From: Ignavibacteriales bacterium
GTDB lineage: Bacteria; Bacteroidota; Ignavibacteria; Ignavibacteriales; SURF-24
Length of the DNA: 64,000 nt
NCBI GenBank assembly: GCA_026390815.1
Contig: JAPLFH010000049.1
Location: 1 to 64,000, forward strand
Direction: 5' to 3'
Shown here: positions 4,630 through 17,078 of the stretch, one piece after another
Layout: every line of letters begins with the position of its first letter
How positions within the stretch are numbered: the stretch's first letter is position 1
Notes under the pieces: generated by a model
The model's input: only the letters and a program-made list of their open reading frames with translations
What the model was told of the DNA's origin: nothing
Databases searched by the model: none
Translations under genes and position numbers: made by a program

Positions 4630-4956
4630 ATGAATAAATACAAGAAAGCTATCCGGGAAAATGTCTGCTCTGTCTGTGTTGATTCTTCAGATAGCGGAGA
4701 ATGTACACTAACAGAAATTGAAATCTGTGCAGTTGAAAAATTTCTACCGCAAATTGTAAAAGTTGTTCATTCCATTCAAAGCGATGATGTATTCGATTAT
4801 GTTGATCTGCTGCGTAAAAACGTTTGCGTTTATTGCCGTGCACAGGACGAGATAAATAATTGTTATTTACGAGAAGATGCAAATTGCTCACTTGATAGAT
4901 ACTTTCCACTTATTGTTGAAACAATACAGAAGGTTGATAAAACTATTTCCGTTTAG
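4630..4956 (+). CDS. Small duplicated four-cysteine protein, unknown function
   Basis: A 108-residue protein I do not recognise. It is an internal duplication: each half starts with R-x-N-V and carries four cysteines at exactly the same spacing, C-x2-C-x8-C-x7-C (residues about 13-33 and 61-81), then an aromatic/hydrophobic helix with (F/Y)-x-P-x-I-V. Eight cysteines in two sets suggest two metal sites (zinc or iron-sulfur) or a thiol-based cytoplasmic role; there is no signal peptide. The start at 4630 is supported by AAGG nine bases upstream. It is divergent from ubiE, and its 3 prime end overlaps the convergent PAP2 gene by 14 bases. Coding is supported by the conserved duplication itself. 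Confidence 0.75.
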   Translation: MNKYKKAIRENVCSVCVDSSDSGECTLTEIEICAVEKFLPQIVKVVHSIQSDDVFDYVDLLRKNVCVYCRAQDEINNCYLREDANCSLDRYFPLIVETIQKVDKTISV

Positions 4957-7342: not shown

Positions 7343-8329
7343 TTGGTTAAAAATTACATCATCAGTGTAGATTTTGGCGGAACAAAAATACTGGCTGCAT
7401 TGATCAATCCAAAAGGCAAGATCATTGCTAGATCAAAAACTGTAACGCAACCGGATAGCGGTAAAGCGGGAATGTTTAAAGCCCTTGTGTTGACAATTAA
7501 AAATGTTTTAGCAGAAGGTGAAGTTGAAGAAGGTAGTGTAAAAGCAATTTGTGTTGGAATTCCCGGTTCAGTAAATCCATATACTGGCATTATCGGATCA
7601 GCACCAAACTTAAAAATTTCCAATTTTAATTTTCGGGAAGTTCTTGCTAAACATTTTTCCATTCCCATTTTAATTGAAAATGATGTTAATCTTGGAGCGC
7701 TCGGTATTCTGCGGTATGAATTAAAGAAGGAAGGTACAAATGTTCTTGTAGTTTTTGTTGGAACCGGTATTGGCGGCGCTTTAATATTTGATAGAAAACT
7801 TTACAGGGGTACAAATTATTTTGCCGGAGAAATTGGTCATATGGTTATTCAGCCAAATGGACCGCTTTGTGGATGTGGAAAACATGGTTGCTTTGAAGCT
7901 CTGGCAAGCAGGCTTGCAATTGTTAGAGATATTAGAAAAGATTTGAAGAAAAAGAAACGAGGTGTTTTAAAACACTTTGCCATTGGTAACAAACCGATTA
8001 AGAGTAAAGCTCTTGCTCTTGCAATTAAAAAGTTGGATCCTATTGCAGTTAAAAACGTAACCAAGGCTTGTGTGATAATTGGACAAAACCTTGCAAGTAT
8101 CACCAACCTTTTGAATCTTGATATGATAGTTCTTGGTGGCGGAGTTATAGAAGCACTTGGAAAGTTTATGCTCCCCAAAATTAAAGCATCATTTAAGGAT
8201 TATGTTTTGAAAGATGCCGGCAGAGAAGTGCAAATAATTGCTACTGCGCTTGGTGATGATGCAGCACTTTATGGTGGACTTGCACTGGCTGACGAAATGG
8301 AAGAATTAACAAGGAAAAATAATAGTTAA
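7343..8329 (+). CDS. ROK-family sugar kinase (glucokinase-like)
   Basis: ROK family kinase, most likely a glucokinase or related hexose/N-acetylhexosamine kinase. Seen in order: the phosphate-1 motif DFGGTK at residues 9-14, the catalytic-aspartate segment ENDVN (about 112), the GTGIGGALI loop, GEIGH, and the ROK zinc site C-G-C-G-K-x-G-C (about 174-181). The absence of an N-terminal helix-turn-helix makes it an enzyme and not a ROK repressor. The start is a TTG at 7343, preceded by TGGAGA; the DFGGTK motif leaves no room for a later start. Its end is convergent with the large histidine kinase at 8364. Confidence 0.88.
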   Translation: MVKNYIISVDFGGTKILAALINPKGKIIARSKTVTQPDSGKAGMFKALVLTIKNVLAEGEVEEGSVKAICVGIPGSVNPYTGIIGSAPNLKISNFNFREVLAKHFSIPILIENDVNLGALGILRYELKKEGTNVLVVFVGTGIGGALIFDRKLYRGTNYFAGEIGHMVIQPNGPLCGCGKHGCFEALASRLAIVRDIRKDLKKKKRGVLKHFAIGNKPIKSKALALAIKKLDPIAVKNVTKACVIIGQNLASITNLLNLDMIVLGGGVIEALGKFMLPKIKASFKDYVLKDAGREVQIIATALGDDAALYGGLALADEMEELTRKNNS

Positions 8330-8363
8330 GAATAAGGTGAATTTGAAATTGTAAAGTGCAAAC

Positions 8364-11300
8364 TTATTTGCCCGGCAAGCTAAATGTAAATTTACTTCCT
8401 TCATTTTCTTTGCTTTCTACATGTATACTACCGTTATGTTTTTCCACAAATTCCTTACATAGTAGTAGACCTAAACCGGTGCTTTCCTCTCCTTCAGTTC
8501 CTATTCGTCCTACCTTTTCTTCCATCTTAAATAATTTATTACATAGGTCCAAAGACATTCCAATTCCACTGTCCGTTACTGATATTTCAACAGTATTGTT
8601 TTCTGTTTGATTTGATCGGACAACTATTTTACCACCTTGCTTTGTGAACTTAACGGCATTTGATAAAAGGTTTCGTAAAATAGTATTTAGCATTGCTTCA
8701 TCTGCATAAACTTTTTGATTCAACGGAATTTCAGATATTATATCAATCCCTTTTTGCTCTCCTCTTTTAATTATAAGATCAATATTCTGAGTAACTATTT
8801 CTGATAAAACAATTTCGACCGGATTAAAGCTTACCGCATCTTGCTGCATACGAGCCCATTCCAATAAATTTAACAAGAGTTTATAAAGGTTATTTGCTGA
8901 GTTATTCATTCCTTTAGTTAAATTAGATAATTCTGTAAGTGAAAATCGTGTTATGTCATCAGCCATTAATTGTGTTATTCCAATAAATCCCTGAAATGGA
9001 CTTCTCAAATCGTGAGCGATGATGGAGAAAAATTTATCTTTTGTAGCATTAAGTTCCTGAAGTTGATTGTTCTGCTGTTGAATAATTAATTCATTTTGCT
9101 TGCGTTCGGTAATATCTCGTTCTATAAACAAAATATTTTCTGGATTGCCATTTGAATCAAGCAAAACTGTAGAATTCACATCGATATAAAATCGGCTATT
9201 ATCTTTTTTTATAGCCAGATATTCTTTAAGCTTATTATCGTTTTCACCTGCAATCAGTTTGTGAATGTTATCAAGCAATATTTTGTGGTTAGAAGGATCA
9301 ATAAAATCAAGCACTGATTTTCCAATAAATTCCTCTTTTAGTTCGATGGAGTAGCCATACATTTCTGCTAATTTATCAGACATTAGCTGCATCTTTCCGT
9401 CCAGCGATATCATACCTATTCCATCAGGTGAAGCTGATATAATAGCTTCCAATTTTTGGTTACTTTTTTGCAAAGCCTCTTCTGCTATTTTGCGTTCGGT
9501 AATATCACGTTCAACATACAAGATGCTTTTGGGGTTGCCGGCGGAATCAAACAAAATCCTTGCATTTACATCAATATTGAACCTGCTATTATCATTTTTT
9601 ATTGCCAAATACTCAGTAAGTTTTTTGTCGTTTGTGCCGGAAAGTAACTTGCGGATATTGTCCTTTAACAAGTTGTGATCTGCTGGATCAATAAAATCAA
9701 ATATTGGTTTATCTATAAACTGATCTTTTTGCTCAAAAGAATAGCCATGCATTTTCACTAATTTTTCGGAGATAAGTTGTATCTTTCCATCCAAAGATGC
9801 CATTCCAATACCATCCGGTGAGACTGATATAATGGCTTCCCATTTTTGGTTGCTTTGTTGCAAAGCTTCTTCAGTCAGTTTACGTTCGGTGCTGTCACGT
9901 TCAACAAAAAGAATACTTAATGGATTTCCTTCGGAATCATTTAAAACTGTATAATTAATTTCAATATAAAATCGGGTATTATCTTTTTTAACAGCCAGAT
10001 ATTCTTTTATTTTATAGTCGCTTTCACCCGTAAGTAATTTGCTGATATTATCCTGCAACATTTTATGATTCGATGGATCGATAAAATCTAAAGCTGATTT
10101 TCCAATCAGTTCATTTTTATCTTCGATAGAATAACCATGCATTTTAAATAATTTATCAGAAAAAAATTGCATTTTTCCATCTATCGATATCATTCCTATA
10201 CCATCAGGTGAAGCAGATATAATAGCTTCCAATTTTTGGTTGCTTTGCTGCAAAGCTTCTTCGGCAAGTTTTCTTTCAGTAATGTCAGTTAAAAAGTTTA
10301 GAGTAGCTGGGGATCCTTCCCAATCGATCAACACTGCATTCATATAAACCCAACGGGTATTCCCTTCTTTGTTCAGCAATCGGAAAATGTAATAGCTGGG
10401 AACATATTCACCGCGTAATCTTTTCAGATGATTTTCGACTACCAGGGTACGATCGTCCGGATGGATAAACAGTTGAAAAGGTGTGGTTTCAATTTCCGTT
10501 TCTGAATAACCCGTCATGGTTCTGGTCATCGGATTAGTAAGCCGGACCATTCCCCCTTGTACTACAACTATTGCTTCATTTGCGCGATCAACAACCTGAT
10601 GATATTTTTGCTCGCTTTCCCTTTGCGCCTCTGCTGTTTGTTTATGCTCTACAATTTCTCTTGTTAGTATTTCATTTGTTTGTTTCAAATTATCGTTTGC
10701 TTCAGAAAGTTGTTTCGTTCGTTCAACAACCAACTCTTCCAGGAACTGATTTCGATCTACCAGTTCTTTCATAGGATAAATTTCTCCATCCCGAACCAGG
10801 TGGTAGGGAATGGATATACTACTGTGCGAAATTTTCCAACCATTAGTTTCCTTGCAAAAAATAAGCACCAGGCGCGCTATCTCCCGTGAAAGGATTTCGT
10901 CCTTTATTGGTAATTGAATTGTGAAGAAACTGGTAGCTACTGCAATTGTTTCTGATAATGATTGGATGGACAGATCCTTTAGTTCGATATGAATTGGATC
11001 CTTGACCTGGGCAAAGTCCTGGCGGGTAATTGCAATCCATTCTGCTTTATCTTTTACTAAAAAATCTCCACCCCCGGTAAAGCCGGAAAAGTTATCACTG
11101 AAATATGTTGTAAGGTTATCATCGCGTGAGGAATACATCTGCAGGTAATTATCAAACAGTTGCCGGATGTTTTGTTCGTCCTGCAACTTCATTGTGTCGT
11201 TTATGGAATCGCAAGAATGTTGGTACTTCGTAATGGAATTTTCAAGCTCAAATTTTAACTTTATTTGTTCTTTGATATCTTTTTCATATTTAGATTTCAG

Positions 11301-11372
11301 TATAGCATTCTCTTGTTTTAGTGTGTTTAATTCCAGTAAAAGTGCTTCTTTAGTTTTAGAACTCTTTTTCAT
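8364..11372 (-). CDS. Cytoplasmic multi-PAS sensor histidine kinase with SnoaL-like domain
   Basis: Hybrid-free histidine kinase of 1002 residues without membrane segments. Order: coiled coil (1-60), SnoaL/DUF4440-like cone domain (about 62-195), coiled coil, one PAS with PAC (about 255-375), three near-identical PAS/PAC repeats (about 368-757), HisKA with the phospho-accepting His787 in AHDLRSP, and HATPase_c with the N-box (NLLSNAVKF), G1 (DSGIGM) and G2 (TGLGLLLC). Each of the three repeats occupies exactly 390 bases. There is no receiver domain and no response regulator gene adjacent. It follows a paralogous kinase after 22 bases, and both begin with the same LNTLKQENA heptad segment. The signal is unknown; the SnoaL fold can bind small ligands. 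Confidence 0.9.
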   Translation of the reverse strand: MKKSSKTKEALLLELNTLKQENAILKSKYEKDIKEQIKLKFELENSITKYQHSCDSINDTMKLQDEQNIRQLFDNYLQMYSSRDDNLTTYFSDNFSGFTGGGDFLVKDKAEWIAITRQDFAQVKDPIHIELKDLSIQSLSETIAVATSFFTIQLPIKDEILSREIARLVLIFCKETNGWKISHSSISIPYHLVRDGEIYPMKELVDRNQFLEELVVERTKQLSEANDNLKQTNEILTREIVEHKQTAEAQRESEQKYHQVVDRANEAIVVVQGGMVRLTNPMTRTMTGYSETEIETTPFQLFIHPDDRTLVVENHLKRLRGEYVPSYYIFRLLNKEGNTRWVYMNAVLIDWEGSPATLNFLTDITERKLAEEALQQSNQKLEAIISASPDGIGMISIDGKMQFFSDKLFKMHGYSIEDKNELIGKSALDFIDPSNHKMLQDNISKLLTGESDYKIKEYLAVKKDNTRFYIEINYTVLNDSEGNPLSILFVERDSTERKLTEEALQQSNQKWEAIISVSPDGIGMASLDGKIQLISEKLVKMHGYSFEQKDQFIDKPIFDFIDPADHNLLKDNIRKLLSGTNDKKLTEYLAIKNDNSRFNIDVNARILFDSAGNPKSILYVERDITERKIAEEALQKSNQKLEAIISASPDGIGMISLDGKMQLMSDKLAEMYGYSIELKEEFIGKSVLDFIDPSNHKILLDNIHKLIAGENDNKLKEYLAIKKDNSRFYIDVNSTVLLDSNGNPENILFIERDITERKQNELIIQQQNNQLQELNATKDKFFSIIAHDLRSPFQGFIGITQLMADDITRFSLTELSNLTKGMNNSANNLYKLLLNLLEWARMQQDAVSFNPVEIVLSEIVTQNIDLIIKRGEQKGIDIISEIPLNQKVYADEAMLNTILRNLLSNAVKFTKQGGKIVVRSNQTENNTVEISVTDSGIGMSLDLCNKLFKMEEKVGRIGTEGEESTGLGLLLCKEFVEKHNGSIHVESKENEGSKFTFSLPGK
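9101..10270 (-). repeat. Three tandem 390-bp repeats encoding PAS/PAC domains
   Basis: The same junction word, related to tgcgttcggt (end of PAC, TERK), recurs at 9101, 9491, 9881 and, more diverged, 10271, giving a period of exactly 390 bases or 130 codons. The three units encode PAS/PAC modules sharing SPDGIGM, the FIDPxxH core and DxTERK ends. The exact period without indels suggests recent duplication or continuing homogenisation. Such direct repeats allow copy-number change by recombination without breaking the frame. Confidence 0.85.
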
Positions 11373-11394
11373 AATCTATTTACTTGTCATTCAA

Positions 11395-14300
11395 CTAAAT
11401 TGGTTTTTGAAGTGTAAAATAAAATGTACTGCCTAAATTTTCTTTACTCTCAACCCAAATCTTTCCATCATGTTTTTCTACAAATTCTTTGCACAGTAAT
11501 AAACCTAATCCAGTACTCAATTCACCTTCAGTACCTTTTGAACTTACCTGTTCACCAACTATAAAGAGTCTATTTAAATCTTTGTTTGATATTCCAATAC
11601 CAGTATCACTAACCGATATTTCTATGATTTCGTTTTCACTGTATTTGGCATTTACTGTTATTGTTCCATCTTTTTTTGTGAATTTTACCGCATTGGAAAT
11701 AAGATTTCTTAGAACCGTGTTAATCATTTTTTCATCAGCTAAAACATTTATAGAATCTTCAACTTGATTGATAATTTTTATCCCTTTTTGTTTAGCGCGC
11801 TCCATATTAGTAGAGATATTTTGAGAAGCCATTGCAGATAAGTTTTGTTTTTGTAAATTGAAATTCATTTTTCCCCGTTGCATTATAGCCCAGTCCAGTA
11901 AATTTTCCAACAATTTATAAAGATTAACGGCAGATTCATTTAAAGCACTACTAAATTCTGCAATTTCGGATATGGTAAAATCTTTGCTTTCAGTTGCCAT
12001 TATCTTAGTCATGTTTAAAAAACCATTGAATGGACTTTTTAAATCGTGAGCAATTATTGAAAAGAATTTATCTTTTTCGGCATTCGAGGTTTTTAATTCT
12101 TCAATGTATTTACTCATTTGCAATTCTGCAAGCTTCCTTTCTGTAATTTCTCTGCCCAAACCAACGATACCAATTATGTTTCCTTCATTATCTAGCAAAG
12201 GCACTTTAGATGTTAAATTCCATCTGGTTGCACCAGATACATCATCCATAGGTTCTTCCCGATTGATTAGAGGTTTACCGGATTTGATTACCGCTTGTTC
12301 GTCAGAGTGGAATTGTGATGCTAACTCGTAAGGTAAAAAGTCAAAGTCCGTTTTGCCAACAATTTCATCCGGATTTGTTATTCCCATACGAGTTACTAAT
12401 GCCTTATTACAAATAATAAACTTGCCATTTGTATCTTTTGCATAAATACGATCTGGAATATTTTCTATTAACGTATTAAGGAGATTTCGCTCTCTTGCCA
12501 ATCTTTCAACATAGTTCTTTCTCTCTGTTATATCTCTAAAAACACTAAGTACTACTTTTTTGCTTCCTTCAAATTCCATATAGGCGTTTGTCACTTCAAA
12601 CCAAACTTTTCGGTCATCCCATAAATGAAGCTCTCTTTCAAACTTAGGTTCAATTTTATTTTCCAAAAATCGAAGTTTAAAAGCCACCATTTTAGAATTC
12701 TTTTCATTGAGATCAGAAATTTCATTTATACTTTTATGAAACAAAACTGAAAGATGTGATCCTTCTAACTGGTCCCTTGTAAGTCCAATCATATTACAAA
12801 AAGCATCATTAACTAAAAGGATCTTACCATCCTGATCCATGATTCTCATTCCATCAAGAGAAACATTCCAAACTGTTCGGAACTGTTCATTATATTTTTG
12901 AATTTCTCTTTCTGCACGTTTCCGATCTGTTATATCACGTCCTATTCCGGCAATGCCAATAATATTTCCTTTTTCATCTTTCAAAGGTAGTTTAGAAGTG
13001 AGTAACCAGCGCTGATTACCATTCTCATCAATAACATATTCTTCTTTGTTAAGGACTGGTTTGCCAGATTGCATTACTAATTGATCGTCTGCTATGAATT
13101 TTTCTGCCAGTTCTTTTGGGTAAAACGCAAAGTCATCCTTACCCAAAACTTCGGTTTCTGATTTTGCTCCCAGATAATGTAAATCTGTTAGGTTGGCAAG
13201 TGTTTTACGGCAAGCAAGGTCTTTGGAATAAATTGAATCGGGAATATTATCAACTAGTGTACGTAATAGTAATCGTTCGTTTTGTAAAGCCTGCTCAGCC
13301 CGTTTTCTCTTAGTGATATCATGGAATGACCATACCCGCCCGATTGAGGAATCATTCATTATAAAAGGAGCTGAAAATCTTTCAAATATACGTCCGTCCT
13401 TAAAATGAAGTATATCCAAATCTTCATCAGGCGAATTGTAGAGTTGACGGATTTTAGAAATAAATTCTTCTGTGTCTACTAACTGGTCCATTATAAAATT
13501 CAATAAAATATTATCATCCCCGGAATCAATTATTGATTTAGGAATTTGCCAAAGTTCAGCAAATCTATTGTTGGTTTTGATAACCTTTCCTATACTATCA
13601 ACTGCAAGAATTCCATCAGCAGTTGATTCAAGAATAACATTCAATTTAACATCGCTTTCTCTAAGCGCTTCTTCGGCTTGTTTACGTTCAATAGCAAAAG
13701 CAATTTGACTACCCACCGATTCAAGAAATTGAAGATCACGTTGGTTGTATATATCTTCCTTTTCGTAGTGTTGAAGAACTAAAACACCGATAGTTCTGGA
13801 AGGAGTTTTTAATGGTACACCAATCCAGGATGGAGAATTTGTTCCAACTAATTCAACCTCATTTCTTTCTACAAGCTGGTCAAATAATTCTTGTGAAAGC
13901 AATAAAGGTTTACCTATGCTGAATACATGTGAGGTACAACTTTTACGCATCGCTATTGGTTCTGGGGTTGTATCGAATTTATCTACAAAAAAGGGAAAAC
14001 TAAAAAGTCCTGTGTTTTGTTCATGCAATGCAACAAAACAATTTTCCGCATATATTACTTTTTTTAGAGATTGGTGCATCAATTCAAGTAAATCATGCAG
14101 ATTGTTAGTAGTTGTAATTCCTTGTGTAATCTCATATAATACATTGCGTTCTTCTTCTGTCCGCTTACGTTCGGTGGCATCACGTACTATTGCCTGAATC
14201 ATTACATTGTCCTCAATGTAAATCCGGTTGAGACTCACCTCAGCGTCAAATGGTGTTCCATCCAATTTTATATGCTTCCAATCAAACGATTGAGGTATAC

Positions 14301-14658
14301 CGGAAAGAGCCGCATTTATTTTTTCAAGTGCTTTTTCTTTTGAATCTCTTCCATCTGGTTGGTTTGGAGGAGAGAACTCGTATGGTTTTCGATTTAGAAT
14401 ATCTTCTCTTCGGCATTGAAACAATTGTTCAGTTTTAAAATTACAGTCAATAAAAGAATCATCCTTCATTAGAAAGATAGCATCATTGGCGTTCTCAAAC
14501 AGGGCTCTAAATTTCCCTTCACTTCGTTGGATAAACTCTTCTACCCGCTTGCGTTCGGTTATATCATTTTCAAACGCGGTTTTTAAAGCAGCATTCTCTT
14601 GTTTAAGAGTATTCAATTCTTGTAAAAGTTCGTCTTTAGTTTTATTAATCTTTTTCAT
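11395..14658 (-). CDS. Cytoplasmic PAS/GAF multi-sensor histidine kinase
   Basis: Histidine kinase of 1087 residues, without membrane segments. Order: coiled coil (1-40), PAS1 (about 43-165), GAF (about 170-325, ending [14 protein letters not shown]), PAS2 (335-455), PAS3 (460-590), PAS4 (595-715), PAS5 (720-845), HisKA with His871 in AHDLKSP, and HATPase_c with [15 protein letters not shown] and [11 protein letters not shown]3 and PAS5 resemble each other ([16 protein letters not shown]), pointing to internal duplication. It is a paralogue of the downstream kinase at 8364-11372: similar start, similar catalytic core and similar junction sequence. The pair may respond to redox or small-molecule signals, but no cofactor-binding signature is evident. 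No response regulator lies nearby. Confidence 0.9.
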
Positions 14659-14681
14659 AGTCTATTTAGTCTTCTTGTATT

Positions 14682-14868
14682 TCATTTGATTTTTGACAAA
14701 GTAAAAAGCAATACGTTAATTACATTCTCTTTGTTTTCTATCCCTGTTTTCCATTGATGTTTTTTGATGAATTCTTAACAGAGTAATAAACAATTAGGAA
14801 TTCTTTCGCATGTTGTATTTTGGAACAACTGTTAAATTCTAAACTTACCAGGTTCGTCAAATTCATTG
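14682..14868 (-). pseudogene. Decayed C-terminal end of a third histidine kinase
   Basis: Read on the minus strand, this piece matches the last part of the HATPase domain of the two intact kinases. In one frame it reads CLLLC, then a TAA where the intact genes have a Lys codon, then EFIKKHQ, ENKENV and LLFTLSKI, ending at a TGA at 14682. The intact copies have [17 protein letters not shown] and FTL at the same spacing. Upstream homology continues with an indel to about 14868 (the segment matching the G-E-Q-V-S coding sequence). The remnant lies 23 bases before the start of the kinase at 14658, almost the same gap as between the two intact genes, and the junction sequences resemble each other. 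It is a dead end of a former three-gene tandem array. Confidence 0.8.
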
Positions 14869-15128
14869 CAACGCAATATAAAATTAAGTATGGGAAATAT
14901 AATTTTTTATTTCCTTGGGGGCTTTCCATTCAAGTTGAAAGCACCCATAAATTAGTCGCTATTTTATCGGGAAGATACCTTATTAAATGAGAAAAGAAAA
15001 GTGCAAACATTTAACATTAAATTGAAATATTTGGACGAAAACGTTTACTAACTTAGAAACGAAATTATTTTCTATTAAATAAACATCAAGTATTCTGCGG
15101 GATTAATAAAAAGTACAGGTAAGCCAAA
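14869..15128. other. AT-rich spacer upstream of the kinase array
   Basis: Between the kinase remnant and the end of the ABC-F gene I see no reading frame with coding character and no strong hairpin. It may carry the promoter of the kinase array, unless transcription enters from the ABC-F gene, which lies on the same strand. Confidence 0.4.
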
Positions 15129-17078
15129 TTACAATTGAAAAGTTTTTTCTATCTTTTCTAATTCTTCGGTTAGAACTGTCCATTTGTTCAAATAATTGTC
15201 CAGTTCTTTCTTGTTAACAACATACTCTGCATTCTTCTCTTTTGCTAATGCAGGATTGGAAAAAACTTCAGTTTCACCTAATTCCTTTTCCAACTTTGCT
15301 TTCTGTACTTCCAGCCGGGCAATTTCTTTTTCAATTATTTCAATTTCCTTAATTAAATGTTTGGTAGCAATATATTTTTGCTGCCGTTGTTCAGCTTCAA
15401 TTCTTTTTTGATCTTTACGATTACTTCCACTGCTTGCGGTTTTTTGATTTAATGCTTCGTTCTTTTCTTGTTCAGCAATTTCTTTTTTCTTCTCAAGGTA
15501 ATATTCAATACCGCCATGGAAAAGCTGGAAATAATTTCTTCTAATTTCAAGAACCTTATTAACAATCGGCTGTAAAAAATCAACATCGTGCGAAACTAAA
15601 ATCAGTGTTCCCTTAAAATCAACGAGCGCTTTTTGCAAAACTAATTTTGATGTATAATCCAGATGGTTAGTTGGTTCATCAAGAACAATCAGGTTTGCTT
15701 TTGTTAAAAGAATTTTTGCAAGTGCCACACGGCTTTTCTCTCCACCGGAAAGTACTTCAACTTTCTTAAAAACATCATCACCGGTAAACAGGAAAGAGCC
15801 AAGTATTGAACGAAGCTGCCCGATAGTTTTATTCTTGGCAATATCTTCCACCGACTGAATGATATCCAGCGAAGGATCTAAATTATCAGCAACTTCCTGT
15901 GCGTAGTATGATATAATTGCGTTATGCCCAACAATTTTTTTACCACCGTCAACTTCAATTTTTTCAGCAATAATTTTTGCCAGTGTTGTTTTACCAGCAC
16001 CATTCGGACCAACAAAAGCAATCTTATCACCCCTATCGATTTTAAAGTTGATTCCATCAAATACAATATTATCTTCAAAAGCTTTTTTTATTCCGATTAA
16101 TTCCATTGGAACAACACCGCTTGGTGGCGGCTCAGGAAATTTTAAATGGATTCCAGCTTCAGAATCGGGGAGCTCTATCAACTCAACTTTATCAAGCTGT
16201 TTTATTCTGCTTTGAACTTGTTTTGCTTTTGTGGATTTGTATCTGAATCTTTCTATAAATCTTTCTGTTTCTTTAATTTTTTTTTGCTGAACTACAAATT
16301 TATTTTCTAATTGCTCGTCTCTTTCAACTTTGAATTTAAGGTATGCATCATAATTTCCATTAAAGGAATTAACTTTATGAAGAAACATTTCGAGAGTTTT
16401 TTCTGTAACAGAATTTACAAAATGTCTGTCGTGAGAAATAATAACCAACGCACCTTCATAACCTTTCAGGTAAGAGATAAGCCATTCCAATGAGTCAAGA
16501 TCAAGGTGATTCGTCGGTTCATCAAGCAGAAGAATATTATGGTTTGAGAGAAGCAGTTTGGCAAGTGCAATTCTCATCTGCCAGCCTCCGGAAAATTCAT
16601 TAGTTAATTTCAAAAATTCTTTTTCGGTAAAGCCAAGACCAATTAAAACTTTTTCAATTTCAGAATCAATTCCATAAAAGCCAATTTCTTCCTTTCTATG
16701 ATGAATTGCTCCAAACTGGTAAATCAAATCATCGCGCTCTTCTTCCGTTATTGAAGTGTTCAGCAATTCAGTAATTTCATCTTCGCGCTTTTGTAAATCA
16801 TTTATAGAAACAAGCGATGATTTAACTTCTTCAAATAGTGGTTTACCGGTATGAGTTACAATTTCCTGTGGAAGGTACCCAATCGTAATTCCTTTTTGTT
16901 TTAATACTTTTCCTGTTTCAGGCTCCTGCGATCCAAAAATAATTTTAAGAAGTGTAGTTTTACCAGAACCATTGGCTCCTACCAACGCTAATTTATCTTT
17001 TGAGTTGATTTTGAGACTTACATCTTTGAAAAGATACTCGCCGGTAAATTGTACGGAGATGTTTATTAGATCGATCAT
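15129..17078 (-). CDS. ABC-F family ATPase (Uup/YheS-like)
   Basis: Soluble protein of 649 residues with two ABC ATPase domains and no membrane part, the ABC-F plan. Domain 1 has Walker A GANGSGKTT (about 35), signature FSGGWQMR and LLDEPTNHLD; domain 2 has GPNGAGKTT, LSGGEKSR and VLDEPTNHLD. The linker between them contains the charged ERFRYKSTKAKQVQSR segment that reaches the ribosome in this family. A lysine/glutamate-rich coiled coil of about 90 residues closes the protein, as in Uup and YheS. ABC-F proteins act on ribosomes (translation-factor roles, sometimes antibiotic protection) or in DNA branch handling (Uup). The precise subfamily cannot be fixed by eye; nothing suggests a resistance island. 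Confidence 0.9.
   Translation of the reverse strand: MIDLINISVQFTGEYLFKDVSLKINSKDKLALVGANGSGKTTLLKIIFGSQEPETGKVLKQKGITIGYLPQEIVTHTGKPLFEEVKSSLVSINDLQKREDEITELLNTSITEEERDDLIYQFGAIHHRKEEIGFYGIDSEIEKVLIGLGFTEKEFLKLTNEFSGGWQMRIALAKLLLSNHNILLLDEPTNHLDLDSLEWLISYLKGYEGALVIISHDRHFVNSVTEKTLEMFLHKVNSFNGNYDAYLKFKVERDEQLENKFVVQQKKIKETERFIERFRYKSTKAKQVQSRIKQLDKVELIELPDSEAGIHLKFPEPPPSGVVPMELIGIKKAFEDNIVFDGINFKIDRGDKIAFVGPNGAGKTTLAKIIAEKIEVDGGKKIVGHNAIISYYAQEVADNLDPSLDIIQSVEDIAKNKTIGQLRSILGSFLFTGDDVFKKVEVLSGGEKSRVALAKILLTKANLIVLDEPTNHLDYTSKLVLQKALVDFKGTLILVSHDVDFLQPIVNKVLEIRRNYFQLFHGGIEYYLEKKKEIAEQEKNEALNQKTASSGSNRKDQKRIEAEQRQQKYIATKHLIKEIEIIEKEIARLEVQKAKLEKELGETEVFSNPALAKEKNAEYVVNKKELDNYLNKWTVLTEELEKIEKTFQL

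Follow-up and report, generated by a model that had tools for sequence, protein, structure and literature searches.

In myxobacteria, histidine kinases expand by duplication and then diverge, with input domains being gained, lost and shuffled, and few two-component genes have relocated within a genome (PMC4603909). We describe here a kinase locus of an Ignavibacteriales bacterium (assembly GCA_026390815.1), found in the stretch of 64,000 nucleotides of contig JAPLFH010000049.1 that was analysed and that we call the window. The locus resembles the myxobacterial expansion (PMC4603909) in kinase duplication and divergence, in the shuffling of input domains and in complex foci with several kinase genes. 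It departs from it in that the joints are visible here, through a broken 3' end and a junction that recurs five times, and in that orthologues of one kinase and relatives of the other lie at different loci. We regard the locus as a clear and well-preserved instance of ordinary lineage-specific kinase expansion, a process that is already established (PMC4603909).

The kinase block and its surroundings consist of the following features, in window coordinates:

8353..8363, plus strand: left copy of an 11-bp direct repeat, AAAGTGCAAAC, flanking the block (weak, P ~0.02)
8364..11372, minus strand: K1, soluble histidine kinase of 1002 aa with SnoaL_3, four PAS and HisKA/HATPase_c domains
11373..11394, minus strand: spacer of 22 nt between K2 and K1, like the spacers of the C7 array and unlike the sequence upstream of K1 orthologues
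11395..14658, minus strand: K2, soluble histidine kinase of 1087 aa with PAS/GAF, several PAS and HisKA/HATPase_c domains
14659..14681, minus strand: spacer of 23 nt between the remnant and K2, of the same family as the C7 junction spacers
14682..14791, minus strand: decayed, truncated kinase 3' end (LLLC, stop, EF...FTLSKIK, stop), homologous to kinase tails, the nearest being those of K781 and KB in the C7 array
14792..15128, no strand: non-coding stretch reaching the ABC-F stop codon, with neither kinase similarity nor a second copy in the genome
14998..15008, plus strand: right copy of the 11-bp direct repeat, AAAGTGCAAAC (weak, P ~0.02)

The head-to-tail kinase pair reported in the preliminary description is present as two open minus-strand frames, K2 followed by K1 after a gap of 22 bp. 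A Pfam scan finds PAS and GAF domains in K2, SnoaL_3 and PAS domains in K1 and a HisKA plus HATPase_c core in both, with scores of 28.6 and 28.8 bits for PF00512 (curated cut-off 26.9) and of 88 and 86 bits for PF02518 (curated cut-off 26.4). The AHDL motif with the phospho-acceptor histidine, the N box and the G boxes are intact in the core alignment of both proteins, and Pfam predicts no receiver domain in either. By these domain and motif criteria K1 and K2 are predicted to be soluble PAS histidine kinases; they look like working cytoplasmic sensor kinases and are probably co-transcribed. In domain make-up and core motifs they are like the multi-domain PAS/GAF soluble histidine kinases (PF00512 plus PF02518) of Ignavibacteria and Bacteroidales, the groups that hold the nearest relatives of their cores, and unlike those kinases K1 bears an N-terminal SnoaL_3 domain. 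None of the ORFs in the block encodes a transposase, and an Rfam scan of positions 8300-15300 gave 0 matches. Elsewhere in the window, between genes for a ubiE-like methyltransferase and a PAP2-like membrane protein, a Cys-rich ORF of 108 aa (4630-4956, plus strand) has two halves that look related by eye (VCSVCVDS.../VCVYCRAQ...).

Upstream of K2 stands a piece of a further kinase end. Read in the frame of kinase ends, it gives LLLC, a stop and EFIKKHQWKTGIENKENVINVLLFTLSKIK followed by a terminal TGA (14684-14682), 23 bases before the K2 ATG. We estimated the significance of its similarity to kinase tails from 500 dinucleotide-preserving shuffles (Gumbel p) under a stricter scoring, since +5/-4 scoring over-extended alignments across the AT-rich upstream stretch. 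The remnant scores 90 against the K781 tail (shuffle maximum 42, p ~2e-11) and 82 against the KB tail (shuffle maximum 42, p ~4e-11). Aligned with the neighbouring kinase ends, as had been proposed, it scores 66 against the K2 tail (shuffle maximum 50, p ~6e-7). A tblastn search with the stop included returns an E value of 1.5e-8. The earlier claim of a broken third kinase end with an in-frame TAA in the LLLC-EF region is therefore confirmed, for the homology as well as for the stop. Its extent is smaller than the 187 nt (14682-14868) first proposed: 110 nt (14682-14791) hold up, and in 14792-14868 similarity is undetectable. The indel that had been noted corresponds to small ones, a 2-nt change close to the remnant's 5' end and, in some pairings, a compensated +1/-1. 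Homology begins abruptly 107-110 nt from the ends of all kinase tails, and the 329 nt from 15128 to 14800 match the terminal 1.5 kb of each tested kinase at chance level (p 0.29-0.88). A 63-aa ORF lying over the remnant (14738-14929) was considered and rejected; it is in another frame and unlike a kinase.

The remnant is 75 % identical to the tail of K781, 71 % to KB, 68 % to K2 and 65 % to both KA and K1, a ranking that rests on 110 nt. Split by codon position (1, 2 and 3), it matches K781 at 23/37, 30/38 and 21/38 sites, compared with 32/37, 35/38 and 26/38 for KB. Because identity is higher at the second than at the third position, the remnant was coding for part of its history. Its homology, in-frame TAA and missing upstream part identify it as a kinase pseudogene fragment. 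When we surveyed 79 genome loci plus others for orphan tails, 4 of 252 tails were flagged, at least one of which is a tail reading through its own stop; truncated kinase tails are therefore rare.

The nearest tails belong to an array on contig C7 of the same genome, which holds KA (1319 aa), a metallophosphoesterase, KB (1422 aa), a PAS-only protein (1035 aa), a KaiC-like ATPase, a hybrid kinase, K781 and another hybrid kinase (933 aa). A tree built from 75 kinase cores places K2 with KA, KB and K781 in a clade confined to this genome (support 100/99), with K2 as sister to KA plus KB; K1 falls outside. The K2 core is 75-80 % identical to the C7 kinases at the amino acid level versus 53 % to K1, and its best match outside its own genome reaches about 61 %; at third codon positions, K2 and the C7 genes are only 62-64 % identical. 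Residues 323-715 and 839-1087 of K2 follow KB or KA at about 72-93 % identity per 60-residue window and residues 61-322 and 716-838 do not. Because only the former stretches match, K2 is a mosaic relative of KB and KA. The family relatives contain no close counterpart of either the block or the C7 array, and no close homologue of the C7 KaiC-like gene was found in the six nearest relatives, which makes it impossible to place the C7 array by synteny.

The PAS kinase set of this genome is strongly expanded. A query with K1 finds 102 matching stretches in the 4.5-Mb genome, with more clusters on C3, C13, C18, C31, C54 and C55. Two genes for KaiC-like double ATPases (C7:245781-247502 and C18:6881-8584), 68 % identical to each other, both lie in kinase-rich stretches, and the one on C7 overlaps the end of the PAS-only gene, which has the kinase leader.

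K1 has a different background. Its SnoaL_3 domain lies at the N-terminus (window 10773-11192, minus strand) and recurs, at 69-83 % identity, in kinases from five further genomes of the order; kinases with an N-terminal SnoaL_3 domain occur in 6 of the 59 genomes searched. This is an unusual input domain, and it is better conserved than the remaining K1 sequence. Full-length orthologues of K1 in G002, G003, G004 and G040 have the same leader and no kinase gene just upstream; they stand in other neighbourhoods, without ABC-F or ROK, and the sequence upstream of them is unrelated to the K1 spacer found here. K1 is an old gene whose orthologues are solitary at other loci in the relatives.

The block lies between convergent ABC-F and ROK genes, which in four family relatives stand tail to tail with gaps of 20, 47, 123 and 123 bp. 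ROK adjoins ABC-F in 14 of 19 order relatives (all four family members included, none of the 14 congeneric), and the kinase copies at the site, for which two, three or more had been envisaged, number 0 in every one of them; the remaining 5 have no ROK gene within the flank examined. Because the site is kinase-free in these 14 genomes, we interpret the block as a derived insertion in the lineage of this genome. The 11-bp repeat around it was spotted post hoc and has a P of ~0.02 by simulation; it may be an insertion scar and is too weak to carry weight.

These results bear on the expansion in place by unequal crossing-over that the preliminary description had put forward. That claim is not supported, as K2 groups with the C7 kinases, K1 lies outside their clade and has solitary orthologues in relatives, and the site itself holds no kinase in those relatives in which ABC-F and ROK adjoin; a local tandem duplication of K1 and K2 is unsupported because the two neighbours are not each other's nearest relatives. 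From the accompanying proposal of a duplication followed by the death of a third copy, the dead kinase 3' end is supported and the local origin is not, the remnant being nearer to the C7 tails than to K1 or K2.

The suggestion that the repeated unit included the intergenic bases was borne out. A junction made of a kinase tail, a spacer of about 23 nt and the initial ~40 nt of the following gene (ATG AAA AA...) occurs five times: before K2 and K1 here, and before KB, the PAS gene and the 933-aa kinase on C7 (positions 238385, 242677 and 253909). Within the genome, DNA comprising the remnant and the leader matches only these three C7 places and the K2/K1 junction. Another truncated tail, EIVGSTFYFTMPIVN followed by a stop (C7:238313-238362, ~49 nt, best p 9e-8), stands directly between the metallophosphoesterase gene and KB. 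The K1 spacer agrees with the array spacers at 12-14 of its 22 positions, where the background averages ~7. Since it resembles these spacers and not the sequence upstream of K1 orthologues, the array is probably the source of the junction before K1, though not of the K1 body.

Across the start codon, the KB|PAS and K781|K933 joints share a patch that is identical at 86 of 88 nt, compared with a mean of 71.6 and a maximum of 83 for 88-nt windows in the cores of the same comparison. The patch exceeds all core windows and therefore supports recombination at the joint. Alternatively, the likeness of the junctions could reflect cis-regulatory constraint rather than recombination. We attach a low probability to the more general idea that the junction is a shared crossover point, at which a single genome exchanges kinases with different input domains while the 5' leader stays constant.

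We lean towards a model in which an array fragment, K2 together with the tail that it carried, was placed before K1. The fragment of a C7-like array would have begun with the terminal ~110 nt of a kinase, followed by the spacer, K2 and the downstream junction, and would have been copied in front of the old solitary K1, arriving as one piece. The crossover would most simply have taken place in the 5' leader common to all these genes. The tail at the edge of the fragment would have lost its kinase coding and then decayed. The homologies, the empty site in relatives, the clade membership of K2 and the recurrence of the junction support this model; against it, no K2-K1 source pair is left on C7. 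Because of this missing pair, and because K2 is so little like the C7 genes at third positions, the copying event appears to be old and its ends untraceable.

One alternative is that three kinases once stood in the ABC-F/ROK site and that a deletion left the last 110 nt of the third, which then decayed. The position, frame and usual spacer length of the tail fit such a loss in place, as does its codon pattern relative to K781 (30/38 at position 2, 21/38 at position 3), and we consider it possible but doubtful: the 329 nt further upstream hold no kinase trace, relatives have no kinase at the site, K1 and K2 did not arise from one another by recent duplication, and the truncated tail before KB would need a separate repeat of the same death. 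Horizontal transfer of the entire block from a different species would account for the lack of a close counterpart of the block and the C7 array in family relatives. It is nevertheless extremely improbable given that the K2 core resembles kinases of its own genome much more than any found elsewhere (75-80 % versus ~61 %) and that K1 has orthologues in the family.

Another explanation concerns why the end of a dead gene is still recognisable, namely that selection has kept it because it holds the promoter or the translation-initiation region of the gene that follows. In its final 25 nt the remnant is identical to two C7 tails at 22 of 25 positions, compared with 18-23 of 40 in the preceding 40 nt, the truncated tail before KB keeps just the same end (20/25), and the first 40 nt of the gene are alike at 38 positions (95 %) between K2 and two C7 genes. 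We nonetheless judge selection on the tail to be unlikely, as the Bacteroidetes-type promoter box TANNTTTG was not found in the tail and junction stretches searched, the solitary K1 orthologues lack such a tail, and recent gene conversion yields the same pattern. Selection of this kind is compatible with the copying of an array fragment, which we continue to favour.

Under the array-fragment model, the locus would offer a base-level view of how a repertoire of sensor kinases grows, with fragments of arrays being copied and the joints remaining readable as kinase tails without an owner. If the junction is indeed a crossover point, this would explain why kinases with unlike input domains have the same start and the same spacing.
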